IMG/VR virus record: IMGVR_UViG_3300022934_000126
Location: 1-28,346 of that record
Direction: 5' to 3' (one strand)
Origin: a virus
Length of the DNA stretch: 28,346 nucleotides
Numbering within the stretch: position 1 is the first letter of the stretch; each line of letters starts with the position of its first letter. Under the pieces are notes generated by a model. It did no database searches. It had not been told where the DNA came from and saw only the letters and a program-made list of their open reading frames with translations. Shown piece after piece: positions 1 to 20,336 of this stretch. The translations under genes were made by a program, and so were the position numbers.

Positions 1-811
1 CAATGCCGTTTGCATCTTTCGCAAGGTGCATCCCACGACGTTGTACTTCCTGTGCTAATCGTACAGAATTTTCTCCATCGTCTACAAGCCGTTGATTGCC
101 CATGATGCTTTCGTACTGAGGTTCAATGATAGCTTCTAAGGCGTCATCAGACGCAGTCCTGACCGCTTCTGAAAATTCATCTGGCTTCATTCCAATTATG
201 GCATCCCACGCTTCATCCATAATTTCAAATTCTGCGGTTTCAATAGCAACTTGGGCGTCCTTGTTTGCCTGTCCAACGGGCAGGCCCTCAAGTTCGTCTA
301 ATATTCCATATTGCTCATCAATTTGACCGCGTAGAATACGTATGTTCTGCATAGCCATATCAAGCGGATTGATTGCCGCTCTACCACCCGCCTTTGTAGC
401 CTTTGTCACAACATCCGTAATAACATCTGGCGCGACGGCTGCTACGGGAACCGCGGCCGCTGCTCCTTGCAAGAACTTACGACGGCTAGGATCAGCGAGA
501 GTGTCTTCGGCAATATCTTTTGTGGCACCCGTGGGGGTCAGGATATCCATCAAAACGGCTTTAGCGGGCTGCTTTGCCGCGGCACCCATGCCGATCATTC
601 CAACAGGAAATAATGTCTCTACACCTGCTTCTATCGCGGCTGCCCTGCGTTCGTCCGCAGGAAGGTCAGAATCAAACGCTCTACCAGAAGCCGCCATACC
701 CCGCATGATACCTTGCGCAGGATCAATCGCGGATAGAAGGTCCATCGCACTTTTACCCATGCGTCTAAATTCTGGCGGAATGTAGTAAGAAATACCGCGC
801 CCATCAGCCAT
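1..811 (-). CDS. Putative virion protein, 3' part cut by window edge
   Basis: An open frame runs from an ATG at 811 to the window edge, giving 270 residues with no stop. The start overlaps the end of the 863-aa gene by 8 nt. The alternative ATG at 804, in another frame, soon meets a stop. The N-terminus (MADGRGISYYIPPEFRRMG) is followed by a Gly/Ala/Met-rich stretch at residues 31-80. Residues 109-128 carry SRRKFLQGAAAAVPVAAVAP, which resembles a twin-arginine signal but sits inside the protein. Residues 150-270 are acidic and look helical. From memory, marine phages carry similar proteins next to large internal virion proteins. Placement in the ejection or internal protein cluster is inferred from context; no enzymatic motif is visible in the part present. 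Confidence 0.75.
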   Translation of the reverse strand, partial: MADGRGISYYIPPEFRRMGKSAMDLLSAIDPAQGIMRGMAASGRAFDSDLPADERRAAAIEAGVETLFPVGMIGMGAAAKQPAKAVLMDILTPTGATKDIAEDTLADPSRRKFLQGAAAAVPVAAVAPDVITDVVTKATKAGGRAAINPLDMAMQNIRILRGQIDEQYGILDELEGLPVGQANKDAQVAIETAEFEIMDEAWDAIIGMKPDEFSEAVRTASDDALEAIIEPQYESIMGNQRLVDDGENSVRLAQEVQRRGMHLAKDANGI

Positions 812-3395
812 TGCCTGTACCCTGTCCCAGTGAACCTATGCCCGTTTCAAATAGAACGTATTCCGGTCCTGTACCTTGAATGATATCATAGCCGGAATAT
901 GTCTCGCCAGTGTCACCGATAGTCTTTTCACGGAATTGATAGGTCGTATTAGTGATAGGGTCGTATGCGACGTCACCGATATCGCCTTGTGAAAAGTCAA
1001 AGTCAGGGCCAATTACATTGTAATTGTAATTACTTAAGTCGGACACCTGACCAAACAGAGGCTGTAAGCGAGCGTCGCCTGATGGGGTAAATCGACGGGT
1101 ATGTGGAACTAGAATATCGGATACGGTTGCCGGTGTGTAACCACCGTAAAAACCACCTATACCCGCACGTCCAAAGACGCTTTCTGTGTCGCCGATTTCG
1201 GTTTCATCGGTGGTTTTTTCATCGCCAGTTTGTGGCTCACCGCCGCCACCGCCGCCGCCACCGCCGCCGCCGCCACCGGGCGGGTCCACTTGAGGACTCT
1301 TGTTGTGTGATAGAACGCCTTCACAAACGTAAGTGTGCGCATCTTCGACGGTCAAAACGACAATGTCGCCAGAACCTTGAGGTTCTGTAGAAATCCAGCT
1401 TGAGGTCGGACCTGCTCCTGACTTATTTAATACGACTTCATCGCCATCTTGAAGCTCCGAGACTTTTACCCATTCGTCGCGATTATATGAGAACACCTTA
1501 TGCGTTGGAGAACACGTAATGACTGCGGAATCAAACAAAACTCTTACGATATTATCCTGTTTGATTTCCTTATGCGTAATGCGGTGTTTACCCCACTTTT
1601 TTGTTTCCTCATGAGAGGTATAAACCACATCGCCAACTTCCACTTCGCCAGCGGGCTTTAAAATGCCGTTAGCTAAAGTGATCCGCATGTCAGGTGTTGG
1701 ACAGGAATCTGTAACGTCGTCCTTTGGTTGTTCCTTCAGAACTAATTCGCCGTCGGCGTTGGTGCCTAAAAGGTCACCGCCGCCGGTAGGATCATAACTT
1801 GTTCCGGGGCCTACTAATTCATCCCCGCCAAGCGTTGAGTAACCGCCGTCCCCATCGTGTACAACCAGACCAGAGCTATCACCGGTATCTAAGAGAAGTT
1901 GCTTTCCCGCGGTATCAACAATTGCAGGGGTGTTTGTGGGAAGATCAGTATCGTTTAAGAAGTCAGATGTCTTTTTCTCAGACAAGTCTAAAATGACATT
2001 TCCGTCGCCATCATACTGTACGTTTTTGTTTTCGTCTAAAAGAGGTCCGTAGTAAGTACCGTTTTCCGCCAAGTCTTTAGACATGTTATAATCATCGGAA
2101 TTAGGGTCCGTGGACCCCGGAAATTCGCTTACGGTGCTGTAATCGTGAGGGTCTGCTCCACCATAGGGGACATAAACGCTTCCGTCGGCGTTGGTTGCCA
2201 AACTAGCCTCTTCATTAGGGTCTAGCCCGCCGACTACTGTCACTTTTGTAGCAGGATCGTCGTTACTACCATCCCACTCTAAAATAGGAGGATTACCCGG
2301 ATTAGCGGGTTCGTCTGGAACTTGCTTGCCGCCGATATTGGAAACGCCCGCTTCACCCAGACTCGTCCCTAGCTCCTTATAAGCGTCTAAGGTGCTTTGA
2401 TCGACTTCATCGTATGGAGTTGCGTCGGTACCGGGATAGTCCGTCACAAGTTCGCCATCTACATACTCTTTTCCGTCGAAAGGAGTAAGGATGTTTGTTA
2501 TGGTTTCAATTAGCGAATTTGATTGACTCTCGCTAGGTCCGACAACGTCATAACCGTCAGATGTGTCCCAATCCCACTTGTCCTCACGATCAACGTCGTA
2601 GTTTCCGCCGCTGGGAGACGTAAGTGTACCATCGCCGTTATCAGTCCAACCAAGGTTTACTAAGGCTTGCTCTCCCGCGCCAAGTGGTACTTTAATTCCC
2701 ACTAGATCATTAGTGTCAATATCGCCTGACAGGGAGCCTTTTATTATGTCGTCCATGATTTTATCATGAGCTTCACTGATGCCGTATTTTGGACTATCGG
2801 CTACAGCATCGGCTACTGCCTTTTGAGCTACGCCAGCGTCGGAGCCTAAAACGATGTCAGCACTGCTATCAGAAATTGCCTTATCAATGCTCGAATCCGT
2901 AGCAACTGTGACGCTCCCCCCACCTTCTGTTGCATACGTGGTCGTGGCGTCGTTATCATCTATGTTTGCCGCAGTAACCTGTTTGTCTGAGCTTCCAACA
3001 GCAAGATCAGCGTCTTTTGCTCCTGTCTTTACATTACCACGCTCGGGCTTATTGCTTTCATCAGCAGGACTATGAGCCACGCCACCTGTTCCGCCGCTTG
3101 CAACATAATCCTCATGGCTGCCGGCATAGAAGCTATCGCCACTTCCACCTGCACCGCCGCCGTCAAACATGTCGCTTAAGCTTGTATAGCCAAACAAATA
3201 CGCCGGTACATTACCCGGTCCGGGGACCGTGGGCGCATTGCCGCGATAATCCTGCAATAAACGTTCTTCTTGCGGGTTAATGTAAGCCAACATGTGCGGT
3301 TGGCCGCCAATCTCTGTCTTTCTTGGGATGAAAGAAGCGATTCCGCCGTCCGATCTTTTAATAACTTGCTTTGAAAACATCGGGCGGTTCATCAT
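804..3395 (-). CDS. Putative virion protein with embedded Hint (intein-like) domain, 863 aa
   Basis: The N-terminus (residues 2-23) holds RPMF and KRSDGGIASFI, and is followed by a conserved-looking segment MLAYINPQEERLLQDY. Residues 80-560 are acidic, low in complexity and rich in Asp, Gly, Ser and Thr, so probably extended or disordered. Residues 565-698 form a Hint domain (see separate entry). Then come 13 glycines in a row (707-719) and a C-terminal region of about 140 residues rich in Gly, Tyr and Phe. The frame overlaps the upstream 1313-aa stop: ATG at 3395 gives an ATGA overlap and ATG at 3392 a TGATG overlap. AGGAAG lies just upstream, so either Met could start it. It sits at the end of a run of large internal-type virion genes. 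Its molecular role is unknown; self-processing is inferred from the Hint residues. Confidence 0.85.
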   Translation of the reverse strand: MMNRPMFSKQVIKRSDGGIASFIPRKTEIGGQPHMLAYINPQEERLLQDYRGNAPTVPGPGNVPAYLFGYTSLSDMFDGGGAGGSGDSFYAGSHEDYVASGGTGGVAHSPADESNKPERGNVKTGAKDADLAVGSSDKQVTAANIDDNDATTTYATEGGGSVTVATDSSIDKAISDSSADIVLGSDAGVAQKAVADAVADSPKYGISEAHDKIMDDIIKGSLSGDIDTNDLVGIKVPLGAGEQALVNLGWTDNGDGTLTSPSGGNYDVDREDKWDWDTSDGYDVVGPSESQSNSLIETITNILTPFDGKEYVDGELVTDYPGTDATPYDEVDQSTLDAYKELGTSLGEAGVSNIGGKQVPDEPANPGNPPILEWDGSNDDPATKVTVVGGLDPNEEASLATNADGSVYVPYGGADPHDYSTVSEFPGSTDPNSDDYNMSKDLAENGTYYGPLLDENKNVQYDGDGNVILDLSEKKTSDFLNDTDLPTNTPAIVDTAGKQLLLDTGDSSGLVVHDGDGGYSTLGGDELVGPGTSYDPTGGGDLLGTNADGELVLKEQPKDDVTDSCPTPDMRITLANGILKPAGEVEVGDVVYTSHEETKKWGKHRITHKEIKQDNIVRVLFDSAVITCSPTHKVFSYNRDEWVKVSELQDGDEVVLNKSGAGPTSSWISTEPQGSGDIVVLTVEDAHTYVCEGVLSHNKSPQVDPPGGGGGGGGGGGGGEPQTGDEKTTDETEIGDTESVFGRAGIGGFYGGYTPATVSDILVPHTRRFTPSGDARLQPLFGQVSDLSNYNYNVIGPDFDFSQGDIGDVAYDPITNTTYQFREKTIGDTGETYSGYDIIQGTGPEYVLFETGIGSLGQGTGNG
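1239..1277 (-). repeat. Poly-glycine tract (13 Gly codons)
   Basis: Thirteen consecutive GGC/GGT codons encode Gly707-719 of the 863-aa protein, starting eight residues after the Hint domain. The mixed codons make this a trinucleotide-repeat-like tract that could slip in frame and vary in length. At the protein level it looks like a flexible linker between the Hint module and the C-terminal domain. Confidence 0.9.
1302..1703 (-). other. Hint domain, bacterial-intein-like (BIL) type, residues 565-698
   Basis: This segment of the 863-aa protein is 134 residues long, the size of a minimal Hint fold without an endonuclease. It starts with Cys565 in a block-A-like context (CPTPDMRITLANG), followed by VEVGDVV. 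The block-B-like part is ITCSPTHKVF, with His632 three residues after Ser629 where inteins usually have Thr. GDEVV follows. The block F/G part is VEDAHTYVCEGVLSHN, ending in His697-Asn698. The next residue is Lys699, not the Cys/Ser/Thr of canonical inteins. A-type BIL domains are known to tolerate other +1 residues and can cleave at either end, sometimes with splicing. Activity here is inferred. Confidence 0.88.
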
Positions 3396-6300: not shown

Positions 6301-7333
6301 CTTGACGTTTATCGGAAATGAACGTCAACGCCTTATCAAGATTACCTTCTTTTACAGCTTTATAAACGCCTTTACCTAAACCAATGGAACCTTTTACTTG
6401 CATCGCTAAAAGATTAGCCACGCCGGAGGCGGTGACCGCCCCTCCAAATTCAGCACCTAAACGAGGAATTGTTGCGCCCGGAAAGTTTTCTTCCGCAATC
6501 GCAGCACCTGTAGTTGCACCGGCTCCGGCAGCCGTTTCAAAGGCTAATGTGGATTTTGGGGCCGCTGCCGCGGTAGTGCCTAAACTACCTACGGTATTTT
6601 CGAGAAACTCCGCAACTTTCAAGCCACGAGTGGATTCAAAAGGGCCTTGTACATCACCCATTCTTTTTGCCAAAGCGGCTTTAGCCGCTTCAACACCGAA
6701 ATTAAGCTTTTTGGGGACCATAAAGGGTAACGGCAGCCACGCCGCAGCACCCATTGCTGTTTTACCGGCTTCATATGCCGCAGTTTGTCCGGGCAACATC
6801 GGTGGTTCTTCGCCCATAATTTCATCAGCAACCTGCTCGCCCATGAAGTAACCGCCGATAGAAGCTAATGTGCCTGTAAGTAAGGGAACACCAAAGCGCA
6901 CCGCCGCGGTAGGTAAGGTTACTGGAGGCACCCCGGAAGTCAAAGCCTGACCCGCTGCAAAGCCGCCCATAAAAGTGGGGACCGACGCAGCTTGCGGGAT
7001 GGCTTCGCGCTTTACGCCTTGCATAAAATTGCCACCCGTGATCGGATTGCCTTCTGGGTCATAAGCAAAAAACTTAATGATCTCTTCGTTTGAAAGCTTA
7101 CGTTCGTTAGGAGCAAGGTTTGCTAGGCTAGGAAAAAGTTCAAAGGCAGGAGCTGTACCCTCTCTTAGACCTTGATAAGTAAGGTAGTTGGGGTCGTCAT
7201 ATTGATTGCTTAAAGTTCCCGCTAAGTTTTCTGCAAACTCACCAATGTCGTTATTATAAACCGACATGATCTTATCAAACGTCGGTTTATCAAACTCAAT
7301 AAATGGGATGTCTACTTCAGTTTCTTCCGCCAT
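3392..7333 (-). CDS. Very large putative internal/ejection virion protein, 1313 aa
   Basis: The N-terminal 110 residues are acidic with FIEFDKPTFDKIMSVYNNDI near the start. Residues 114-206 and parts of 250-320 are rich in Gly, Ala, Val, Leu and Ile with few charges, possibly membrane-active. The middle, from about 330 to 1150, is strongly helical and charged, with many Glu, Lys, Arg and Gln runs. The last 100 residues are Pro/Ala-rich and end in RSRYAALFPNDPIS and then QGIGSLL. Size, hydrophobic patches and helical body resemble the large ejected proteins of podoviruses (T7 gp16 class) in general design only. I found no convincing lysozyme or transglycosylase motif. The ATG at 7333 overlaps the previous stop as TGATG, with AAGGAAA upstream. 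Function is inferred from context. Confidence 0.7.
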   Translation of the reverse strand: MAEETEVDIPFIEFDKPTFDKIMSVYNNDIGEFAENLAGTLSNQYDDPNYLTYQGLREGTAPAFELFPSLANLAPNERKLSNEEIIKFFAYDPEGNPITGGNFMQGVKREAIPQAASVPTFMGGFAAGQALTSGVPPVTLPTAAVRFGVPLLTGTLASIGGYFMGEQVADEIMGEEPPMLPGQTAAYEAGKTAMGAAAWLPLPFMVPKKLNFGVEAAKAALAKRMGDVQGPFESTRGLKVAEFLENTVGSLGTTAAAAPKSTLAFETAAGAGATTGAAIAEENFPGATIPRLGAEFGGAVTASGVANLLAMQVKGSIGLGKGVYKAVKEGNLDKALTFISDKRQEQVRNYILTVLEESGEDVDQIIERLGSNEFTDLLVDEQGNPIQLTAALKSGSPALLALEKSLEKLTTGVGKERASANLQATRALRNTINALYAIGGQDATQDAADLAQAVFANGMEQDLAGAWKRVFDAYEQVGGGQERQAKLGEQLYGILDTRLNAARQNEKRLWSSVPKDFAISEFIDEQGNVTDTPQFIEWVNNNLPETEEALDDIAPDLKPILNFVRRKERELGLVPSDGGDGSRPTMSKDLERAYDSYQKSSDQFLGTADERILANVEATAEGIEDINERIAYIRGQAQNLRQRASNREFDDNANARKLATAFDRLANLELLKSREPDPDLLAASEEVEFKPLTATEIYDMYSLALSKGKKFAAAGEDNLSRLSYGFAKALMRDLDNFDTGDAAYNTARAYSRALNDAFTRSFVKDVLQEDKSGALRTAPEQIANDVFQADAGYLRLKQLDQVGQFELTQALTNIATNAGNPDLQKTLNRAMDYSRNPETGLVDTMRLNKWLKNNRKSLSKYPDVLKNVESAVETTSTIRGVTESILRNIRAESFDPATGEVNIKTLRRWMDRQDSRDILSAMPALKEDLNNVQTARVLLDEDLAKQREQLNELKEQVSFMDLLPGTTENPQTAAGKAIANAQKKPVAAWNELLKVVKKAPAEWTTADGVKHTREEALRGLRSAFIEAAMIKSGGSSPTFSSREFFDTIFAPHRNSQNKISLADWMLKNDVMTKPEMDRLRGLATELVKMESFVASGDMNLDELVEAVGPMMDFYLRIAGASAGARMQSMIPGDTGAGSLVAAGAGSKVFRSVYSKIFAEMPESLKMDVMTEMFKDPDLLATMLSKGKTEPQKRNIAARLTQILANKGFVGATAIGRRGAPPIVRETEETIVDEEPQITVPEPSPNDEASLTPRRVLPTNPPVAQPRPAAAPAPVPQTTPPSPQPAARSRYAALFPNDPISDMINSNQGIGSLL

Positions 7334-10176
7334 CAGTTGCGTTTCCTTGACTTAACGTTCTGTTCCATAAGTGCCGCTGCCTCATTTTTAGCGTCAGTTG
7401 TACTTGGGCTAAACGCGTCGGTTACAGGACCGATCATGTTTTGTAGACGTTGAATCTCAAACAGCTTTTGTTTGAACAACGCGGATTGCGAGGAATCTAA
7501 GGGCTTACCGCTACCCAACTCATTTAGAATGCGACGTTTTTCGTTAGACAATTCTGTTGAGAGCGAAATAAGTTTTCTAGCTTCTGTTTCAGGGTTAGCA
7601 AACAATGCTTGTTCGTTTGGAAACAATTGTTCCGTTGTCTGCAAATCCGCCACAGCAAAACGAGGCGACGCTGCAAGTGCGGAACGTCCCATGACCCGAA
7701 GCATTTTAATATACTGACGAGCGTCTTGCTTGTTTCGGCCAACGGTAAAGTAACCGCCACTGATACCACCAACTACTGAGTCAAGACCGGCGGAGACTTT
7801 TGCCCAGAAGCCTGTGCCAGTTCGTGCCGCATTAAACGCGTCGGCAACTTCTTTCATTTCTTCTGAACTTAATGGATTTCCGTCGGCATCAGTCATTCCG
7901 CCGATTAAGATAGCGTCCATTTCTGCCAATTGCTGTAGGGCGTTCAAGCGAACTTTCTCTTTTTGAGCTACGTCATATGCAACGCTGTTGTTAACTTCAT
8001 AAGCATCGCCCGGAACTGCTTGAACCTCGCCATTTTCGTCAACGTACGTTCTGCCACCGTCATAACTTGTACGAACGCCTTTATCAGGAATGAGGAAGCC
8101 GCGTGGAGTAACGCTTGCAGTAGATATTTTCTGCATACTCGCTTGGCCACCACTTGCGGAAACCTCATTAACCAAAGCAATAGCTTGCTTACCCTGTGGT
8201 GAGGTGATATCAACAATGGTCGTAACAGGAGTACCGGATGCGTTGGGCAACGTAACTTGTGCGTACTCTGGTTCTGGAGCATCCGGTGTACCAAAGATTG
8301 GCTTGACCTCACCTGTTGCATTATCGATTGCAACAAGCTGACCATTTCGATTTTGGAACGTGAGGTTACCTTTAAGTGCAAGAATTGCTTTTTCCGTTTC
8401 AATTTGTTGAGTGGCTCTCACCTTAATGAGCGCACGGTCTTCTGCCTTTTTGCGCTCTTCAGCGTTCAATTCACGCCGTAACGCGCGTTGTTCAGCCTCA
8501 ATTTCTAGGTTGGTTTCCATAGCCAAGCGACGGCCAAACTCAATTTTGTCCCGTTCTTCTTTATTCAACTGACGATTCAATGCGCGTTCTTCGGCTGCAA
8601 TTTCAGCCTCAATGGCTGCTTTAATATCAAACAACTCGTCTGCGCGGTTTCTGTCGTACTGTGTTTGCTCAGTCGCTGCGGCAAGAGCAAGGTCATGAGC
8701 TTTTGAGTCTGCCGTCCAATTACCAGAATTAAGAAGCTCGTTATACTTTTGACGACCCTCCGGCGTTTTAACATTGAAACTCTGTGAAGTGCCCGGATTA
8801 GCCAAGCTATAAAGAACTTTATCCTGAACTTCTCGCGATTCTGTGATTTGAGCTTGTTCGTCCGCTTTAACTAACTCATAAGCAGTCTTGTCTTTAGTAT
8901 AATTACCGTCGGGTCCAATCTCTTTAAGAATAACTTTGAAATCGGCATCCGTATTTATTGGGAAATCAACTGGGTTTCCTTTTCCGTCTTTTGGATATAA
9001 CGTAATTAGCTTTTGATCGGTGTCCTTATCTGGCTGTGTGCCAAGGTTAAAAGGAGTAGAGCCGGGATTATCTTTAAGTTTTTGTTCAAACGCTTGGGCC
9101 TGTTGTGGATCATTTATATTAAAAGAACCTAAATCTTTGCCGTCTGCACTTACCACGCGTTTGTACTCAGGATTTGGGGTTTTAGTTGCTGTTTTTGTAG
9201 CAACAGCTTTATCATATGCCTGTTGCGCACTTACGTCAGACTGTGACGCCGCAATTGAGCTTTGCAACGCGGCTAAATCCATCTGACGTCTTTCAGCATC
9301 CATAGCCTGCTTGGCATCTAGTTGGCCCGCGGCCCGTGATCCGATCTTCTCGAACAACTGCGTGGATTGCGCGGCATTCATCAGACGTTCCGCAGGAGAC
9401 ATTGCACGGTCTGTCGGAGCACCCGCAGCTAAAGCCGCTTGAGCAATATCAAACAGCATCTGCGCCTTTGTCATCTTTTTGCGCTCTTCAAGTTGCGCAT
9501 CTCGTGAGGCTTGATCGCCTAAAACACCAGAATAAAGCTTCTGAAACTCAGGCATGTATGCCGCCGCACCCGCCGCTACTTCGCCGCCGGGTGCAAAATG
9601 GCGGACTTCGCCGCCTCGGTTAAAATTTCTAGGTGGAGTGTTGCCCGCCCCCTGCATCATGAGTTGGCCAACGCCCTGTCCCATTGGCGTGGGTTGCCCA
9701 GAGGGCATTTCCATGTCTATCGTGCCCGCAAGGCCCTGCATCAATTCGCCAATGCCACTATCAATTGCGCCTTCTTCCGTCATCATAATTGTCGGCTGAA
9801 CCATGGCCAAAACACTTTCCGGTGTTTTGTTAGCATCAACCTCACCAACATACTGAGCAAGTTCCGTGTACCGCGCTTCAAGGGGCTTTTCGTTTCCTCT
9901 AATTGCGTCGATCATGGACTTCGGATCATCGGCTTGATCAATATTTGCCATCATCTGAGCCGACGCAATCTCACCGGCTTGTCGTCCTGTGGCCTCTGCT
10001 TTTGCGGTGGCCTCTTGCATAAAATTTGATGGAGCCGGTGGGGGTGCCATTGGAGCCGGTGCGGGCGATGGGGGTGCCATTGGAGCCGCAGACGGTGCTA
10101 CGGGGCCACCGGCTTGTCGGAACATGGGCCGTTGCATAACAGAGCCGCTTGGAAGTGGTCTAAAACCTTTATTCAT
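7333..10176 (-). CDS. Putative internal virion protein with long coiled coil, 947 aa
   Basis: The N-terminus contains MQRPMFRQAGG and then a Pro/Ala-rich stretch (residues 25-52). NRGGEVRHFAPGGEV lies at 187-200. Residues 220-330 are helical. A long charged coiled-coil region spans about 495-600 and includes two copies of an Arg/Glu/Leu-rich segment 33 residues apart (starting at Glu525 and Glu558). The C-terminal 170 residues (from about 775) hold a hydrophobic patch, WAKVSAGLDSVVGGISGGYF, then an Arg/Leu-rich helical domain with SPRFAVADLQ and FANPETEARKLI. From memory, this C-terminal domain recurs in marine phage virion proteins. The start overlaps the previous stop as TAATG. An internal or ejected role is inferred from size, helicity and neighbours. 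Confidence 0.7.
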   Translation of the reverse strand: MNKGFRPLPSGSVMQRPMFRQAGGPVAPSAAPMAPPSPAPAPMAPPPAPSNFMQEATAKAEATGRQAGEIASAQMMANIDQADDPKSMIDAIRGNEKPLEARYTELAQYVGEVDANKTPESVLAMVQPTIMMTEEGAIDSGIGELMQGLAGTIDMEMPSGQPTPMGQGVGQLMMQGAGNTPPRNFNRGGEVRHFAPGGEVAAGAAAYMPEFQKLYSGVLGDQASRDAQLEERKKMTKAQMLFDIAQAALAAGAPTDRAMSPAERLMNAAQSTQLFEKIGSRAAGQLDAKQAMDAERRQMDLAALQSSIAASQSDVSAQQAYDKAVATKTATKTPNPEYKRVVSADGKDLGSFNINDPQQAQAFEQKLKDNPGSTPFNLGTQPDKDTDQKLITLYPKDGKGNPVDFPINTDADFKVILKEIGPDGNYTKDKTAYELVKADEQAQITESREVQDKVLYSLANPGTSQSFNVKTPEGRQKYNELLNSGNWTADSKAHDLALAAATEQTQYDRNRADELFDIKAAIEAEIAAEERALNRQLNKEERDKIEFGRRLAMETNLEIEAEQRALRRELNAEERKKAEDRALIKVRATQQIETEKAILALKGNLTFQNRNGQLVAIDNATGEVKPIFGTPDAPEPEYAQVTLPNASGTPVTTIVDITSPQGKQAIALVNEVSASGGQASMQKISTASVTPRGFLIPDKGVRTSYDGGRTYVDENGEVQAVPGDAYEVNNSVAYDVAQKEKVRLNALQQLAEMDAILIGGMTDADGNPLSSEEMKEVADAFNAARTGTGFWAKVSAGLDSVVGGISGGYFTVGRNKQDARQYIKMLRVMGRSALAASPRFAVADLQTTEQLFPNEQALFANPETEARKLISLSTELSNEKRRILNELGSGKPLDSSQSALFKQKLFEIQRLQNMIGPVTDAFSPSTTDAKNEAAALMEQNVKSRKRN

Positions 10177-11408
10177 TACAAAATCCCCGCCTGTTTGGCT
10201 CCACCGTAGGCACTTAACCCAGCAATACCGGCACTAGCTGCCTGCATAAAGGGTGAAGCATTACTACCGCTGCTCATGGTTTGTGTAGACTGTGATGTTG
10301 GAATCCCTGCATACACGTCAGATAGGAAACCAAGCTGCTTATAAGGCTCTTGGTAATTCTGCTCGTCGGTTAAACGCTGCGCATCCAAAATCGCTTGCTC
10401 ATTAGACTGCTCCATTCCGCCTGTTGTCATTAGGTTATTAATATCACCGGCTGCTAGGTTAGCTTCTAATTCACCCAAGCCCGCGGTCACCACGCCTTGG
10501 TTACTTAGTTGATCTGCCATGCCCGCTTGACCCAAAGCTCCGGCCTGACCGAGTTCACCAATGCCCAGACCAAGCTGACCCTCAGTAGATGCCGCGGTAA
10601 TGGTGCGATCTTTGCCGCTTTCAAAAGCCGTTTGAGCACGAGTTGCCGCATCTTGATAGCCTCGCATACGCAAGTCCGCCACAGTCGAGGCCAAACTCTT
10701 TTCAAAGGCTTCTTGGCGTGGATCAAGTTCCCGCGCTCGTGCGCGTTCAAAACCACTCTGTCCGTAAGCACCCGCAGACACCGCTTTGGCGGCAATGTCG
10801 CTTTCTCGCATCGCCTGTTGAGATTGAAAGTTACTTCTTAGATCAGCAATTGTACGGTCAATTACTTCCTGCTCATAAGGGTTCATAAAGACTTGAATGC
10901 CCGTGGGATCAAACTCGGCTCCGGCCCCGGCTAACGACTCAATTCCAGCTTCCGCCGCCGTAACCCCCTTATCAGTGGCCTCTTCCATGCCCGTGATTGC
11001 GTCTTCGGTGTAGTCTTTAGCGGTTTGAACGTCGCCTAAACCCTCCGCGATATACGGCTTATAAGAACCAACGCCCGCTTCGGCCTTCTCAATAGCTTCT
11101 TGCTGACCCTTGGTAAGTCCGGCAACCTGATAGTCTGGCATTCCGAACTCAGCGTCGAGAGAAATTTTACCAATGTCTTCGGCAGTATAGTCTATAGCGG
11201 GAAGATAGCCATCTTCGCCTTCAACGCCCTCGGCAGGCATGGACAGGCGTTGCGCAATCTCTGCGTCGGATAAACCTTCGGCTCGCAGGTTTTGAACCTG
11301 CTTTCCAAACATCTCATTGCGAATTAAGCCCTGAGTGTCCTCTAAAAGACCTAAACGATATGCTTCAATCTGCGGGTCTTGTTTTGTAATTGTTGTTTGT
11401 ACGGTCAT
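10176..11408 (-). CDS. Conserved marine phage virion protein, 410 aa, putative internal protein
   Basis: The protein is acidic and mostly helical, with an Ala/Gly/Gln-rich C-terminal half. A recognisable core lies at about residues 165-230: VFMNPYEQEVIDRTIADLR followed by an Arg/Gln/Ala-rich helix and SAGAYGQSGFERARAREL. I recall this FMNPYE...GAYG/GAFG pattern from many uncultured marine phages beside internal virion proteins, but cannot name a characterised homologue. The C-terminus (ASPFMQAASAGIAGLSAYGG) is small-residue-rich and possibly membrane-interacting. ATG at 11408 overlaps the upstream stop by 4 nt (ATGA). It could equally be a tail-associated protein. Confidence 0.68.
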   Translation of the reverse strand: MTVQTTITKQDPQIEAYRLGLLEDTQGLIRNEMFGKQVQNLRAEGLSDAEIAQRLSMPAEGVEGEDGYLPAIDYTAEDIGKISLDAEFGMPDYQVAGLTKGQQEAIEKAEAGVGSYKPYIAEGLGDVQTAKDYTEDAITGMEEATDKGVTAAEAGIESLAGAGAEFDPTGIQVFMNPYEQEVIDRTIADLRSNFQSQQAMRESDIAAKAVSAGAYGQSGFERARARELDPRQEAFEKSLASTVADLRMRGYQDAATRAQTAFESGKDRTITAASTEGQLGLGIGELGQAGALGQAGMADQLSNQGVVTAGLGELEANLAAGDINNLMTTGGMEQSNEQAILDAQRLTDEQNYQEPYKQLGFLSDVYAGIPTSQSTQTMSSGSNASPFMQAASAGIAGLSAYGGAKQAGIL

Positions 11409-12793
11409 GCCACAACTCCACCTTCAAACGCCCGCATCATATCATACATCTTTCTGACGCCCTGTTCACGGCTACCGTTTCCTGCACCGCGAACTGCGCG
11501 AGCAGTCATTACAAATTCACCGTCAGACAGCATTGCGGGAATGTCATCAGAAGTCTCTGTGCCCGGACCTGCAATATACCCTTGGCGACGAGGATACATT
11601 TCACCGCCTTGAGCAGCATACTGCGGCAGATAGCTTTGGAAGATATAGTCTTCCTGTTTAGGCTGTCTGCGCTTGCGACCAAGAGTAGTGCCAAAAGGCA
11701 TACGTGCAAATACGCTATATTTTTCAGGATTCTGCGCATACAACGCTTGAGAGGTAATACCGAAAGGTGAGTCATCCAAGTTGACTTCAGGTGTTTCAAA
11801 GGCACCTGTCGCTGCGGCCAAGCCTGTACCAACCGCGGCCAAGGGTCCGTATCTAGAGAGTAGGCCCGGCTGCTGTAGCGCGACTTGATCTTGAGCCATC
11901 TTTACAACCGCGTCTTTGCCAAGAGTTTCAACTAAATTAGGGTTGTCTTTTACAATAGTCGCAACTTGATTTAGCTGCTCTGCGGGAGTCGCAACCTTGC
12001 GATTAGGGCTTAAATACTTCTCAAAGAAGTTTTTAGGCTCTGCTTGTGAAATAGTATCTGGCGGCGGTAAATCGGGTGCATTCTGTTGAAGTGTAGTTGT
12101 CGTCTTAATCGGAGATGCCGCGGGTGCTTTTCCTGTAATGAACTCTTTAACTTTTGGATTAACAGCCAAGCGTTGACCCGGTGTGCCAAGAGCCGCTTGA
12201 CCCCACTGTTCACCAAAACCTGTTTGCATACCCGAAAAAATGCCGCCGGCCAAAGCACCAAAGGCCGCATTTTTCACGGCGTCTTTGAAGTTCCCGCCCT
12301 GTATAAGTGTAGTAATCCCCGCGCCTAAAGCACCAGAACCCACTGCGCCAAGGCCCGGTAGCAGCATGTTAAGGCCGATTGGAATTATAATCGGAGCGAT
12401 CTTCTTAAAGACGTTTTTGATCCCTTTGACCAACTTCTTCAAGAAAAACTCGGGCTGACCTGTGACAGGGTTAATGCTGTTGGCACCAGAACCTACCGTA
12501 TAACGCTCCATGTCCACGTTAGACCGATCAAACGCTTGAGTAAGCTCTTTGGCTAATTTAGGGTTTTCTTCCAGAATCTCAGGAGAAACCGCGATCTCGC
12601 CTGTCTTCATGTGCACAAGCTGATCATCACCGTTGCGCCCATAAGACGCCATACGGTTACCTACTTCAACCATAGAATTAATGCCCCGAGGGGCACCAAA
12701 AGCTAAGACATTATCCTCAACTTCGTCCATGTTGGACGTCAGAAAGGAAGCCAGACCACCTTCGGGTATTCGTTTTAAAGAGTTGTATTTCAT
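11405..12793 (-). CDS. Putative internal/ejection virion protein with membrane-active segment, 462 aa
   Basis: I place the start at ATG 12793 rather than the GTG one codon upstream, because GAAGG lies 7 nt before this ATG. Residues 7-18 read KRIPEGGLASFL, closely matching the N-terminus of the 863-aa protein. Residues 58-110 contain LVHMKTGEIAVSPEIL and YTVGSGANSINPVTG. Residues 115-150 form a basic amphipathic helix (EFFLKKLVKGIKNVFKK) running into a hydrophobic Ile/Leu/Pro/Gly stretch, followed by Gly/Ala-rich sequence to about 190. Residues 409-438 hold GPGTETSDDIPAMLSDGEFV, a motif I recognise from many phage virion proteins. A role in membrane interaction during DNA entry is inferred from the amphipathic segment. 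Confidence 0.72.
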   Translation of the reverse strand: MKYNSLKRIPEGGLASFLTSNMDEVEDNVLAFGAPRGINSMVEVGNRMASYGRNGDDQLVHMKTGEIAVSPEILEENPKLAKELTQAFDRSNVDMERYTVGSGANSINPVTGQPEFFLKKLVKGIKNVFKKIAPIIIPIGLNMLLPGLGAVGSGALGAGITTLIQGGNFKDAVKNAAFGALAGGIFSGMQTGFGEQWGQAALGTPGQRLAVNPKVKEFITGKAPAASPIKTTTTLQQNAPDLPPPDTISQAEPKNFFEKYLSPNRKVATPAEQLNQVATIVKDNPNLVETLGKDAVVKMAQDQVALQQPGLLSRYGPLAAVGTGLAAATGAFETPEVNLDDSPFGITSQALYAQNPEKYSVFARMPFGTTLGRKRRQPKQEDYIFQSYLPQYAAQGGEMYPRRQGYIAGPGTETSDDIPAMLSDGEFVMTARAVRGAGNGSREQGVRKMYDMMRAFEGGVVA

Positions 12794-12851
12794 CACAAAG
12801 CCTTCAGATTACCCGTATACTAACAAATATATACCACAGTTTCCATCACAA
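12794..12851 (-). promoter_or_regulatory. 58-nt gap with candidate promoter or processing site
   Basis: This is the longest non-coding gap in the window and precedes the internal virion gene block. On the minus strand it is AT-rich and contains TGTGGTAT running into TATATTTG, with the 8-mer at 12831-12838, 38 nt before the ATG. TTGTGA, overlapping the upstream stop codon, lies 18 nt before TATATA and could be a poor -35/-10 pair. The same 8-mer occurs in the 15268-15319 gap. GAAGG, 7 nt before the ATG, is the ribosome binding site. The promoter reading is weak. Confidence 0.3.
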
Positions 12852-15319: not shown

Positions 15320-15766
15320 CTAGCGAACAGGTTTAGGCGGCCATTTTAGGCTTCGGGGATAACCCTCCTGATGCTCAATTTCGCGCATATATCGTCTAAA
15401 TGATACAAGCTTTTCTGGCACAGGCGTGTTTTTTTCAAGGTAAAACATCACGTCGTCCAATGTTCCGGCTAACTCATCTTTTACGCGCTCTTTAATTTTC
15501 TCAAAGATTATCTCGTCAGGCAGCATCTTGACTTCGTGGTTTTGTCGCCAAGCTCCCTCTTCAAAAATGACCGTTGTTTTTACCTTTTCTGTAAAAGGGT
15601 CGTAAGGAGGAATTGGCGTGGGCATAACTTTAAACACATTGAAAGCATTCAAAGTTTCTTCGGGAATTTGAGAGGGAAAACTTACGTTTTTGTGACGACG
15701 TTTCAATTCTCCTTCAAAAAAAGGAAACTTCTCTACTTCGTTGTCTTCCCCGATCAAAACGTACAT
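15320..15766 (-). CDS. Tail-assembly-chaperone-like protein, 148 aa
   Basis: I choose ATG 15766, which overlaps the upstream stop as TGATG, over the TTG one codon earlier. The N-terminal half is a small strand-rich domain (YVLIGEDNEVEKFPFFEG, then NVSFPSQIPEE) with YDPFTEKVKTTVIFEEGAW. The C-terminal third is helical and ends with FRRYMREIEHQEGYPRSLKW and PPKP. This 'YR..LR.i..Q.g.P..i.WP..P' ending is what I recall from the phage tail assembly chaperone family often written next to fibre genes. Its position directly after a giant tail protein gene fits a chaperone for that product. Assignment is moderate because only the C-terminal motif is clear. Confidence 0.6.
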   Translation of the reverse strand: MYVLIGEDNEVEKFPFFEGELKRRHKNVSFPSQIPEETLNAFNVFKVMPTPIPPYDPFTEKVKTTVIFEEGAWRQNHEVKMLPDEIIFEKIKERVKDELAGTLDDVMFYLEKNTPVPEKLVSFRRYMREIEHQEGYPRSLKWPPKPVR

Positions 15767-18700
15767 CAAACTTTGTACTCACCTATAAGACCGCTGCTTA
15801 CAACAAAGAACCGAGTGCCGTCGCTGTTCCAATCAAAGTAGCCCCCAGAAGCACCCCAATATGCGTTGTTGGTAAAGTCATTACCATCCGGAGGAGAATC
15901 GTATTCAAACTTAAAGCTTGTGAGTGGCGTAGCCGTTGATATGTCATAAGGCGTTGATAGTGAAAATGCGAGAATGTACTTGTCTGACGAGCTTAATTGT
16001 TGGTCACTGCCACCTTTTTGCAGCATGTAAAGATAATTACCACTATCTTTAAACATAAGGTTTACAAAATAGGGCATTGCACCGGAGGTAAAGGGCCACG
16101 TAAAGCCGCCGTCCGGTAAAACTTCTTTATGAACTGCCGTTCCCTCAATAGCGATAGAGGCTGTTGTAGGGTCATACTCCGTGGAAAGGTTTACTTTATG
16201 GGTATAAATCCCAGTATTGCCATATTCGCCACGAATATAAATACTATTTCCATTGCTAGGGTGCCAACGAATAGCATTTACATCCGCGCCAATAAAGCCG
16301 TATTTGCCCCATGTCTCATTCGTATTAATTTCTATGTTATCCCAAACACCCGTGGTGGTAATGTCCCATGGAGTACCCATGGTTGCCATCCAAAGTTGCC
16401 CAGCATACGCAATAATAATGTGTTCCCCGTTACTGCTTATGTCAAAAGAATAAATACTAGACGCAGAAACAGAACTGGTTACTATATTATAGCCGTAGTG
16501 AGAAGCCGTCGATAAATCCCATGCGGTTGTTAAATTAAACTGATGCACAAGTAAGTTACTACCTTGGTAGTAAGCTTGCGGATAGGCTAATGTCGAGTTT
16601 GCTCTACCTATAATATAAATCGAGGTGCCATCAGACTTCCATCTAAACTCATAATTACCAAACGCAATTGTTCTTGGAACTACACCGTCTAGTACGGGGT
16701 CAGCCCAATACCATATGTGCGAACCACCGTCATGAGTCATGGTTTTAAAGCTAAGTTCCGAACCAAATTCAGTTTTTAGGATGTAGTCACCCCCGGTTCC
16801 GTCCATGCCACGGAACATTTTTGTTCCGGTAGAATCAATATAAAGGCCCTGCGTTCCAGTGCTACCTCCAACCATATAATACGTGTAATACCTGTCATCA
16901 TTACTTGGGGCAGTACTTGGAAGAGTAGAAGGGTCCCAATTTGTACCAAAGTCAAACCTATAAAGCTGAGTCTGTTGCGCAACGCAAAGCTTTGACCCAT
17001 CCGATTTTATCCAAATACCCGCCGCAAAATCGTCATTAATTAAGGACATCGTTTTATAATTATCCGGAGTGGTTGTGCTTGCTATAGACGTGGGGTCCCA
17101 TGCGGTGCTCATGTCCCACTGAAAAATATACTCCGTGTTGCTGTTATAGCTCAAAGCATACATGTAAACTGCGGAGCCATCTGGCTTAAAAAACATCTTA
17201 TCTTGTTGCGTTGAGGCTCCGTAAGCCATAGTACCGAAAGTAAACGTTTTGTCTGGGGTAGAACCACAAGAGCCTAAATCATAAGCGGTTGAGGCAGCAT
17301 AACGTTCCAAGATTCCCGCACTGGCACTTCTAGTTAATCGGAAAAGGTAATTTCCATTATTCCCCCAAGCTATGTCTCCGCCGAACGGGCTGCTACTGAC
17401 AGATAGAGTAGCGTTAGCCGTAGCCGAAGTCGTGGATAAATCCCATGCTGTGGACAGACTATATTCAGTTACCGTGTTTGAGGATGCCTGATACAACTTT
17501 GTTCCCGTGGGATTCATAGTCAGACAGTTAGTCGTCGTATTAACATCCGTTTGTCTCCAAGTGTTATCCGGTTTCCCCGGATCATTAAGTCGTATGTCGG
17601 AAACATCATAAGCTGTGCTTAACGAATAAATACGAATACAGTTTAAGGTGGTGTCCAACAAATACGCTTTTGTACCATCGTTATTAAAAGAAAAGCTTTC
17701 TATAGAAGTTTTATAGGCAAGGTTATCGCTATAGGGACCAAGTAAGTCGTTTGTTTTTGTTCCACCATCGTAAGTAGTGACCCCATAAGCTGTGGGTGGC
17801 GTAACTGTTTTAGCGTAATCCCCATCTAAATTTAAACAAGTGTAAGTGCTTCCAGAGCTATCAAACTCCAATCCCGTGTTGTTGTAATTATTAGTATCAC
17901 CTGTTTCAGTAACAATAGCCCTTCCGAAACCAGAAGTGTCCATAGTGGAAATGTCGCCAGCGGTCCCTAACGGAACAGTGTAAAGACCGGGGGGCATGGG
18001 TGCCGGCAATGTGGGGTTACCACTTGTATTAGCGTAGCCGTAAACGGCAAGTGTGAGTTCGTCTTTAGCGTCATTAAACATCATACTTGAGGCTTCATTA
18101 AAAGCACTTGTTCGATAATATTTATTCAAATAATCAAAATCGACGAAGGAAGACGGATCAAAAGCGGAGCTGTAATTAAAACAACGTAAGCTTGCCCCAC
18201 TAAAGATAGCTAGTAGATTTTGCCCGTCTTCGGACCAAGTTTGAGAAAAGGACGGAAGCCCGCTGGAGTTATAAAAATTAGTGCCCGAAGTGACATAGCT
18301 AGAGGTTCCAACATTATATGCCGTAGAAAGTGTTTCCTCGAACAAATAATAAGGGTCGGTAGAATCGTTGTAATGACGCCCTATCAAAAGTTTAGACCCG
18401 TCCGCATTAAAATTAATTCCGTTTATAGTCCAAGAAGTACCCCAGTGTGAATTAGCCGTACTAGACGAAGACAAAGTGAGCGGTGGATTGTACATCCGAG
18501 AGGGCATTTCAAGTTTAACGCTGCTTAGGGAGGATGCGCTTGCCGCCCCATTGTAGATAGCCGAACTTATGCCTTGGTTGCTCGTAAAAATACGCGTAAA
18601 TGTGGAAGAATCAGTGTAAACATTAAAACCTGCTCCCATTCGTTGAGGAACTGAACCAGCTAACACTGCACCATACTTTGCATTACTGGTTTTTGTGCTC

Positions 18701-19437
18701 CAATCTAAGGTACTCAAATCAAAGGCCGTAGTCATTTCTACCGCCGTAAATATTAAACTAGTATCGTTTATGTATAAAACTGTTCCGTCAGAGGACATGC
18801 CCTGATAGGTGACATCCGCCAAGCCCTGTCCGGATATGGATGTAATATCGGTATCCGCAGTAACCCCTGTACTTAAATCATAAGCAGTTGTTAAGTTGAA
18901 AACCTTTATGCTCGTACCAAAGTTATGTATTACATAGTAAACTGTGCCGTCACCATTAAACATACCCACCCCTTCACTATTTGTAGATGACGGATCAACT
19001 ACGGAAGTTATTGTGGTTAGAGTAAGAGTTGAAGAAGGGTCCCAAGCAGTTGCAAACTCACATTGATATAACCTTGTATACCCGGTATCTATAAAATAAA
19101 ACTTTGTGCCATCATCATTTACAGTAAGGCCCCTAGGAGAACTTGTAAACCCTGTATTAATTTGGGTGCGTGAATCACGGGTAGCACTGCCCATGTCCCA
19201 TGGAGTAGATAAGGTGTAGGCCTCAAAAAAAGCACCCGAGGAACTGTTGTTATTGTTGACGACCATTTTGGTGCCATCACTTTTAAACACAACCCCTACG
19301 GGAAACTCGGAGTCATTTACTTCATACTTGTAAACGTTATTATAACCGGTGCCTCCTACAAACACAGCTTGATCAAAAGTCCATGGGTCACCACCGCTGC
19401 CCCCGGCCCCCATTTGTACCTTACGAGACACACTCAT
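15766..19437 (-). CDS. Giant putative tail protein built of propeller-blade-like repeats, 1223 aa
   Basis: The frame opens at 19473, but ATG 19437 shares a base with the upstream stop (TAATG) and removes an unlikely Cys/Arg-rich leader, so I start at MSVSRKVQMGAGGSGGDPW. Almost the whole protein is made of about 18-19 units of roughly 60 residues. Each has a strand like 'F..DGTKxYxxD' followed by 'IxxYxLSTAWDLST'. Clear examples are IRIYSLSTAYDV, VTEYSLSTAWDLST, IFQWDMSTAWDP and VHQFNLTTAWDLST. Such units are expected to form blades, giving two or three stacked beta-propellers. Similar 'LSTAWD' proteins occur in cyanophage and other marine phage virions from memory. It may act as a tail spike, fibre or decoration. 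No enzyme residues could be assigned. Confidence 0.78.
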   Translation of the reverse strand: MSVSRKVQMGAGGSGGDPWTFDQAVFVGGTGYNNVYKYEVNDSEFPVGVVFKSDGTKMVVNNNNSSSGAFFEAYTLSTPWDMGSATRDSRTQINTGFTSSPRGLTVNDDGTKFYFIDTGYTRLYQCEFATAWDPSSTLTLTTITSVVDPSSTNSEGVGMFNGDGTVYYVIHNFGTSIKVFNLTTAYDLSTGVTADTDITSISGQGLADVTYQGMSSDGTVLYINDTSLIFTAVEMTTAFDLSTLDWSTKTSNAKYGAVLAGSVPQRMGAGFNVYTDSSTFTRIFTSNQGISSAIYNGAASASSLSSVKLEMPSRMYNPPLTLSSSSTANSHWGTSWTINGINFNADGSKLLIGRHYNDSTDPYYLFEETLSTAYNVGTSSYVTSGTNFYNSSGLPSFSQTWSEDGQNLLAIFSGASLRCFNYSSAFDPSSFVDFDYLNKYYRTSAFNEASSMMFNDAKDELTLAVYGYANTSGNPTLPAPMPPGLYTVPLGTAGDISTMDTSGFGRAIVTETGDTNNYNNTGLEFDSSGSTYTCLNLDGDYAKTVTPPTAYGVTTYDGGTKTNDLLGPYSDNLAYKTSIESFSFNNDGTKAYLLDTTLNCIRIYSLSTAYDVSDIRLNDPGKPDNTWRQTDVNTTTNCLTMNPTGTKLYQASSNTVTEYSLSTAWDLSTTSATANATLSVSSSPFGGDIAWGNNGNYLFRLTRSASAGILERYAASTAYDLGSCGSTPDKTFTFGTMAYGASTQQDKMFFKPDGSAVYMYALSYNSNTEYIFQWDMSTAWDPTSIASTTTPDNYKTMSLINDDFAAGIWIKSDGSKLCVAQQTQLYRFDFGTNWDPSTLPSTAPSNDDRYYTYYMVGGSTGTQGLYIDSTGTKMFRGMDGTGGDYILKTEFGSELSFKTMTHDGGSHIWYWADPVLDGVVPRTIAFGNYEFRWKSDGTSIYIIGRANSTLAYPQAYYQGSNLLVHQFNLTTAWDLSTASHYGYNIVTSSVSASSIYSFDISSNGEHIIIAYAGQLWMATMGTPWDITTTGVWDNIEINTNETWGKYGFIGADVNAIRWHPSNGNSIYIRGEYGNTGIYTHKVNLSTEYDPTTASIAIEGTAVHKEVLPDGGFTWPFTSGAMPYFVNLMFKDSGNYLYMLQKGGSDQQLSSSDKYILAFSLSTPYDISTATPLTSFKFEYDSPPDGNDFTNNAYWGASGGYFDWNSDGTRFFVVSSGLIGEYKV

Positions 19438-20336
19438 TATGCAAACTCCTGTCCGCCTACAAATCCGTACCAATTTGTGCCACCATCGGTGGTGTACAAG
19501 GTGTAAATATCAACTGCGCCAGACGCCGTACTAAGAGTGGGAGCGGAACCGCCTGCCCAACTAACGGAAGCTGGCCAAGCAAAAGTACGCGCAGTTGTGT
19601 CCTGAACAATTTTTAAGGTTAATGCATAAGACGTACCAGATGCCGGAGGGTTACTTAAAGTCAACGTCGTGACGTTCTCTGTGAGCGTCGTTTGAAAGAC
19701 GTTTGCGCTTTCGCAATCTACCGTCAAGGTTCCTGACGAAGACGATATGGCAGCATACGTCTCATTATAACTTTTTGCTTTAAACTCTTCCGAAACGTAC
19801 ACGTCACCATTAGCGTCTGCCGTCAGCGTTTTACTTGCTTCTGACGTACCCAACGTTGTGATGTCGTTATAATTTACTTCGGCAGCCGTTGCGGTAACGC
19901 CAAGTTGACTCAACGTAATTTGAAGCAACGTTGTTAAATCCTTGACCTCGGCTCCTGCGCCCGCGCCATCACAATATACAATCGCCGCGTCACCGTTAGC
20001 TATCGTCACATTACCCCCAGTGCCTTGCGTTAATACAACGCTTTGTCCGCTAGTATTGTAGGCAAAGTACAAATGCGATGCATCATTAGGGGCAATCGTG
20101 ACGGTGTTTGTACCAGAGGGCGAACCGCCAAAAACTAAAACTCGATACTGCCCATCAGATAAGGCACCATCAGTTGTCGTTAATGTATGCGTTGTGCCGC
20201 TTAAAGTAATCGTCCCCACCCCATTTAGGATGCGGTCTATCATCTGTAAGTTTACGTTTGTTGTATCACCCCATGTGCCAGACTGTTCACCAGTAGCAAT
20301 GAGTTCGATACCAGAGGAGGTATAAGTACTAGCCAT
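19437..20336 (-). CDS. Phage tail fibre protein, 299 aa
   Basis: Residues 9-39 hold GIELIATGEQSGTWGDTTN and then an Ile/Asp/Arg-rich helix (QMIDRILNGVG). This is a widespread N-terminal module of phage tail fibre proteins in my recollection. The middle is Thr/Ser/Gly-rich beta structure with TNTVTIAPNDASHLYFAYN. The C-terminal domain has LTLKIVQDTTARTFAWPASV followed by WAGGSAPTLS and DGGTNWYGFVGG, again a recurrent marine phage fibre ending. A 9-nt gap separates it from the 537-aa gene. It probably forms part of a fibre with neighbouring repeat proteins; the receptor is unknown. Confidence 0.8.
   Translation of the reverse strand: MASTYTSSGIELIATGEQSGTWGDTTNVNLQMIDRILNGVGTITLSGTTHTLTTTDGALSDGQYRVLVFGGSPSGTNTVTIAPNDASHLYFAYNTSGQSVVLTQGTGGNVTIANGDAAIVYCDGAGAGAEVKDLTTLLQITLSQLGVTATAAEVNYNDITTLGTSEASKTLTADANGDVYVSEEFKAKSYNETYAAISSSSGTLTVDCESANVFQTTLTENVTTLTLSNPPASGTSYALTLKIVQDTTARTFAWPASVSWAGGSAPTLSTASGAVDIYTLYTTDGGTNWYGFVGGQEFA

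Follow-up and report, generated by a model that had tools for sequence, protein, structure and literature searches.

On balance, we favor the view that phage virion proteins carry a distinct family of Hint domains whose thioester would be resolved without canonical splicing and with the participation of a lysine that flanks the domain. The domain considered here lies in an intact reading frame for an 863-residue protein, on the minus strand of a 28.3-kb virus record that is possibly a fragment (IMG/VR record IMGVR_UViG_3300022934_000126); "the window" denotes all 28,346 nucleotides of it. An earlier sequence-only reading had proposed an intein-like domain at this place, and the positions it gave for the domain, Cys565, Ser629, His632, the Asp-Ala-His-Thr-Tyr motif, His697-Asn698 and Lys699 are all exact (Table 1).

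Table 1. Positions, in the window, of the Hint-bearing gene and its parts
Feature	Window positions	Strand	Basis
863-residue virion-module protein with Hint domain, intact frame	804..3395	(-)	
Hint domain of 134 residues (565-698)	1302..1703	(-)	profiles, AlphaFold model, Foldseek
Cys565 (Cys1), block A nucleophile	1701..1703	(-)	
T-x-H-E family motif, Thr593-Ser-His595-Glu596	1608..1619	(-)	
Block B, Ser629-x-x-His632	1500..1511	(-)	
Val680 at block F:4, where inteins have Asp/Asn/Cys	1356..1358	(-)	
Block F, Asp-Ala-His-Thr-Tyr (residues 685-689)	1329..1343	(-)	
Block G, His697-Asn698	1302..1307	(-)	
Lys699 (+1), conserved flank lysine	1299..1301	(-)	
N-terminal part, residues 1-564	1704..3395	(-)	
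C-terminal part, residues 699-863, poly-Gly linker at its start	807..1301	(-)	
Near residues 517-520, site of the extra Hint in orthologue L001; uninterrupted in the window protein	1836..1847	(-)	

Library models match the domain weakly, yet beyond chance. With the domain alone as query, PT-HINT (PF07591) gives E=9e-7 and 29.6 bits, compared with 25.1 bits for the whole protein and a cut-off of 27.7; Intein_splicing (PF14890) gives 2.4e-7, which is under its cut-off, and intein_Cterm (TIGR01443) gives 16.6 bits, its cut-off being 15.6. A single-sequence search of the PDB returned the Mtu RecA inteins and Hedgehog at E ~2e-3, and a search with a profile of 21 viral relatives returned an intein (7cfv, 2.7e-9), the A-type BIL structure 2lwy (4e-9) and gp41-1 (8e-9). 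The AlphaFold model of residues 556-707 (pLDDT 89.9, pTM 0.83) has an all-beta, Hint-like fold, and its top Foldseek match is BIL2 of Tetrahymena BUBL1 (E=8e-12, TM 0.84), followed by the Ssp DnaB intein, CthBIL (2lwy) and Hedgehog. The profile matches to Hint and intein models and to a BIL structure, together with the predicted fold, thus bear out the domain that had been proposed from the letters of the sequence.

With its Hint fold and motifs A, B, F and G, the domain belongs to the HINT superfamily, within which several classes could be set aside. Assignment to the class 1 (canonical) inteins is contradicted by Lys699 at +1, by Val680 at F:4 and by the site itself, a non-conserved, partly Gly-rich linker instead of a conserved host site; class 3 inteins lack Cys1 and use a block-F cysteine as nucleophile, whereas Cys1 is present here and F:4 is valine. 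B-type BILs have no likeness to intein block G, which is present here as SHN. A Hedgehog Hog domain was rejected on the C-terminal His-Asn, behind which 165 residues follow without a Pfam match, and a toxin Hint (PT-HINT) because no toxin domain lies behind the Hint and no other Pfam domain was found in the 863-residue protein. A-type BILs are defined by Cys1, a terminal His-Asn and a non-nucleophilic +1 residue (PMC4031507), and all three are found in the domain. To that extent the designation "BIL-type" in the sequence-only reading stands, but it does not extend to kinship with the bacterial A-type BILs of the CthBIL kind, which carry Ala at +1. On our tree, where CthBIL relatives are the only BIL rows, these form a 100/98 clade of their own, and no grouping of the virion family with them was found; a 100/99 branch separates the SHN Hints from the BIL, intein and VHN rows, a split that we regard as a moderate result because few columns and long branches enter into it. 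One long-branched terminase intein falls on the SHN side, and a divergent SHN row (the second protein of L010) falls opposite.

Comparison with individual systems reveals the same mixture of likeness and difference. The C. thermocellum BIL (2lwy) shares the Hint fold (TM 0.77/0.84), Cys1, the His of blocks B and F, the terminal His-Asn and the missing +1 nucleophile. However, its bacterial relatives (n=19) start with CFVAGT, end with VHN, have Ala at +1 in 17 cases (Val and Asn in one each) and mostly carry C-terminal tails of ~65-165 residues, whereas the virion family has a CPxP-type start, SHN, Lys at +1 or +2 and, in most members, T-x-H-E; it lacks D/N at F:4 and is not part of the BIL clade. 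BIL2 of BUBL1 (PDB 6y75, 6tmm) is the nearest solved fold and is likewise a Hint behind an N-terminal partner, but its context is eukaryotic and ubiquitin-like and its identity is just 17%. The Hedgehog Hog domain resembles the family in fold (1at0, TM 0.75), in its Cys1 thioester and in the common Gly at -1, but it belongs to an animal protein and has no C-terminal His-Asn. The class 1 inteins of phage terminases and helicases share the fold and blocks A, B and G; C, S or T at +1, D/N/C at F:4 and residence in packaging and replication enzymes are features of their own.

The family was collected by protein, alignment and DNA-pattern searches of viral contigs. The pattern scan fixed only AHTY-x6-SHN and left the flanks unconstrained, and its matches were then confirmed by profile; the distinct domains with this AHTY/SHN core, among the matches listed, make up a set of 96. 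All 96 of these, among the matches listed, have lysine at +1 (59) or +2 (37, in the contexts IK, VK, LK, YK, RK, MK, DK, SK, NK and AK), and the same is true of 49 of 49 clusters at 60% identity. Among the matches listed, the 69 full-length members invariably have Cys1 and the block-B His (69/69 each), block B reads SxxH in 57 and TxxH in 10, and the Thr and His columns of T-x-H-E are more than 90% conserved. The serine of block B, which had been remarked upon as standing in place of threonine, is thus present in the window copy but not peculiar to it. Gly or Ser at -1 is common in the family.

The position of the lysine is less constant than its presence. On a tree of 74 rows at least 14 changes between +1 and +2 can be counted, which indicates that the lysine is kept but not its exact place. 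The Hints are either embedded in linkers rich in G/P or placed at the C-terminal end, where a short tail follows; +1 lysine goes with internal Hints (43/52) and +2 lysine with terminal ones (27/36; p=6e-8, kinship ignored). There are also exceptions. An earlier, profile-defined set had the lysine in 33 of 36, the three others being L003 (ISK), the first Hint of L011 (LVGK) and the second protein of L010 (VY), and outside the scanned core L232 and L272 have an internal RR, while jumbo cyanophage NCTB has NAP and NAV. The tail-fibre locus of that phage (LT598654) resembles the family in its C-terminal Hints with tails of 3-7 residues, two of three behind a Gly-rich linker, but its sequences are divergent and its tails are KVD, APVDQKH and AVMVAKK, so that the lysine rule holds in one of three; its annotations read "putative phage tail protein, contains intein domain" and "large intein domain protein". 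A second Hint lineage in virion-like proteins, CFxxGT...VHN, has lysine at +1 as well.

Many of the proteins that carry these Hints are assigned a virion role by association. An early-alignment profile scan of genome contigs gave no confirmed relatives, and family queries against cultured phages either came back empty or led to true inteins and to records of uncultured gut phages at 24-29% identity. A human gut phage (MT835519, L148:3001-3345) has a C-terminal Hint ending SHN-IKQQEQLQ that is 47% identical to the Hint of L226 from environmental contigs, so the family is present in the gut too. The pattern matches L252, L271, L297 and L315, whose contig names do not start with 33, are presumably isolate genomes, going by the IMG numbering; if so, they would offer cultivable hosts.

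It is informative to set these figures beside those of other Hints. A scan of the same kind for Y-x-A-N-G-[VIL]-[VIL]-V-H-N in viral contigs yielded 105 viral Hints with C (89), S (6), T (2), K (7) or A (1) at +1, that is, C/S/T in 97 of 105. Judged by their C-flanks, the C/S/T cases resemble inteins of terminases, helicases and other enzymes, apart from one T case, which follows a Gly linker. Most of the seven K cases belong to Gly-linker or array proteins, and in three of them, which are divergent, the protein ends VHNK-stop, so that the lysine is the entire C-extein. Block F:4 is D, N or C in 88 of 96 inteins as opposed to 3 of 96 members of the SHN family among the matches listed (K 42, T 12, R 11, V 8; Fisher p=1e-40, kinship ignored). 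Two trivial origins of the lysine were considered and dropped: as a by-product of basic C-termini, since lysine is found in just 1-4% at +3 to +20 (2% in the 60%-identity cluster set, among the matches listed), and as chance after any HN, since, of 391 non-Hint HN pairs, 34 (8.7%) are followed by Lys at one of these two places, +1 or +2.

These comparisons bear on two parts of the sequence-only reading in opposite ways. Its doubt about canonical splicing, raised by a +1 residue other than C/S/T, is strengthened by Val680, given that D/N/C is absent from F:4 in 93 of 96 relatives among the matches listed. Its treatment of the lysine as merely a missing nucleophile is not supported in that form, because a residue that is fixed throughout the core, among the matches listed, and that forms the whole C-extein in three divergent members seems to have a function in the module.

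The phage is SU10-like, and the setting of the gene on the minus strand is that of the virion. The block includes genes for two SU10-type adaptor proteins, for an S74 tail spike and tail-fibre proteins, for a virion protein that matches phrog_3287 (4.6e-74) and for a product with a weak match to a DNA ejection protein (6.5e-4); the Hint protein gene is the last of three large genes behind the putative ejection protein gene and closes this neck/tail/ejection block. The location of the earlier reading's "phage virion protein" in a virion module is therefore well supported, while the narrower term "internal or ejection protein" is drawn from gene order. Neighbouring virion-block proteins (window 804-3395, 7333-10176 and 11405-12796, all minus strand) have common short N-terminal motifs (RPMF..GG, GG.ASF). 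Also on the minus strand are a 537-residue protein of ~30-residue repeats (VTGLEATGSVGxVxVxG; 20346-21959) for which no Pfam family was found and, amid the tail-fibre genes, a 1235-residue protein without a PHROG match (15766-19473).

Orthologues L001 and L002 carry two Hints in tandem, of which the second is the counterpart of the window Hint. The first stands as SGLVTHTASGGNDS-Hint-KKPYGGYATLGG, in contrast to the window protein, which reads straight through as SGLVVHDGDGGYSTLGG; the extra Hint of L001 brings short flanks of its own. The C-terminal part of the window protein is 84% identical in L002. Omega is 0.08-0.13 for the Hint against 0.38 for the N-flank and 0.46 for the C-flank, and on these values the Hint is under strong purifying selection, tighter than that on its flanks. 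Synonymous divergence is higher in the Hint (dS 1.6-2.1) than in the flanks (0.74 and 0.26), so that Hint and flanks may differ in history. Homologues of the N-terminal part occur without a Hint in many other viruses, with conservation over the first ~110 residues; no relatives came back when the C-terminal flank served as query.

The Hint is optional in other proteins as well. A virion-like protein of ~770 residues from large phages (L016:7540-9855 and its orthologues L152-L197) occurs with or without a C-terminal Hint: among 46 loci at 53-100% identity most have a short tail and stop at nearly one common point, seven distinct orthologues continue with a linker, an SHN-type Hint and a tail of 6-10 residues, and one more (L179/L180) has a CFVAGT-type Hint, again with lysine at +1. 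The N-terminal protein thus exists naturally without the Hint, as expected if that part can work alone. The predicted structure of a Hint-bearing member (pLDDT 44) was unusable. Near these loci there is often a collagen-like tail-fibre gene with a Hint at its end too. Tandem arrays of two to four Hints are found at L320:1-1624, L348:1-1969 and L401:5730-7950 (+), which end VHNK-stop, and in L232 and L272, which have Pro-rich spacers. In L119, L120 and L122, Hints that are 87-98% identical stand between strongly different low-complexity flanks, which suggests module shuffling.

In Hint domains, Cys1 and the block-B His generate an N-terminal thioester, and an Asn with a penultimate His can cyclise. 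Given the fold and the invariant catalytic residues, Cys565 would undergo an N-S acyl shift that leaves a thioester at Ser564. Without C/S/T at +1 and without the F:4 coordinator, the trans-esterification of class 1 inteins could not follow; instead, the thioester may be resolved by another route in which the +1 or +2 lysine would act as a base, as an amine acceptor or as the N-terminus freed by Asn cyclisation, and Asn698 could bring about cleavage on the C-terminal side. Overall, a flexible linker in a virion protein would undergo a programmed change, with the N-terminal part released from the Hint and perhaps re-joined to the C-terminal part. Several observations speak against this reading. 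Exceptions to the lysine rule exist outside the core (L003, L011, L010, L232/L272 and NCTB); tandem arrays of up to four Hints are poorly compatible with simple self-excision; and if N-terminal cleavage were the sole task, there would be no need to conserve the Asn and Lys that follow. Such arrays and the VHNK-stop ends are ill-suited to plain excision and leave some probability to readings in which the lysine is an acceptor or a cross-linking residue.

It is possible, though clearly less probable than the general reading just given, that the domain cleaves at both ends. A-type BILs, in which +1 is not a nucleophile, undergo cleavage for the most part and, to a lesser extent, ligation by way of the free amine on the C-terminal fragment (PMC4031507; PMC7664689), and the window domain has their complete set of parts, a model that resembles BIL structures, and a family in which -1 is commonly Gly or Ser. 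Cleavage through the Cys565 thioester and cyclisation of Asn698 would then be independent, the freed alpha-amine of Lys699 would sometimes attack to give occasional aminolytic ligation, and the gene would yield residues 1-564 and residues 699-863 as two mature virion proteins, along with a free Hint. In that case lysine would be favored only as leaving group or N-terminus, yet in 37 of 96 relatives among the matches listed it is at +2 and is neither; where a terminal Hint is followed by 4-20 residues or by a lone Lys, there is no worthwhile second product to be made; and bacterial A-type BILs of the CthBIL4 kind have Ala instead. A more doubtful proposal is that the epsilon-amine of the +1 or +2 lysine, or of a lysine on a neighbouring subunit, attacks the Cys1 thioester to form an isopeptide bond, joining the N-terminal part to the C-tail or to another subunit before Asn cyclisation frees the Hint. 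This would account for a lysine that is fixed yet mobile between +1 and +2, even as the lone C-flank residue, and for the absence of the Asp/Asn by which inteins assist their +1 nucleophile, a position here often taken by Lys or Arg; moreover, the nearest fold, BIL2 of BUBL1, has been proposed to transfer a ubiquitin-like domain to a nucleophile. A precise nucleophile would, however, be expected at a single fixed position, and we know of no natural Hint that forms an isopeptide bond with a lysine acceptor. We likewise hesitate over the broader claim, unlikely at present, that these domains are a separate phage class in which the fixed lysine, not Cys/Ser/Thr, accepts the N-terminal acyl group, so that the virion protein is re-joined or cross-linked by an isopeptide bond (side-chain splicing).

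Readings without catalysis are less probable still. Tandem arrays that resemble adhesin repeats, and the optional presence of the Hint at the ends of orthologous virion-like proteins, would suit a catalytically idle module that serves virion fibres as a beta-rich linker or in receptor binding, its lysine being structural. We consider this improbable, as a binding module should have no need of a catalytic set that includes Cys1 and the block-B His in 69 of 69 and Lys in 96 of 96, among the matches listed. That the domain is a canonical intein which, deprived of its +1 nucleophile, has survived by chance is barely credible: fold and blocks are the same, but a large family retains Cys1, both His and the Lys, the omega of the Hint indicates strong purifying selection, and the linker and terminal sites are unlike those of inteins.

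Domain databases and some depositors already call such proteins "Hint" or "intein domain"; in the full-text literature searched, which covers few subscription papers and preprints, no paper on the virion Hint family or the lysine rule was found. Hint domains that lack a +1 nucleophile are usually taken as crippled inteins. A large Hint family in phage structural proteins, in which lysine is the rule, the catalytic residues are retained and a key intein coordinator is gone, speaks for another reaction on virions, one under selection, and the lysine behind the Hint, first seen as a defect, probably takes part in its chemistry. Such a reaction could serve as a tool for cleavage or ligation and, if side-chain splicing proved true, the Hint would be a natural ligase of the intein family that acts on virus particles.
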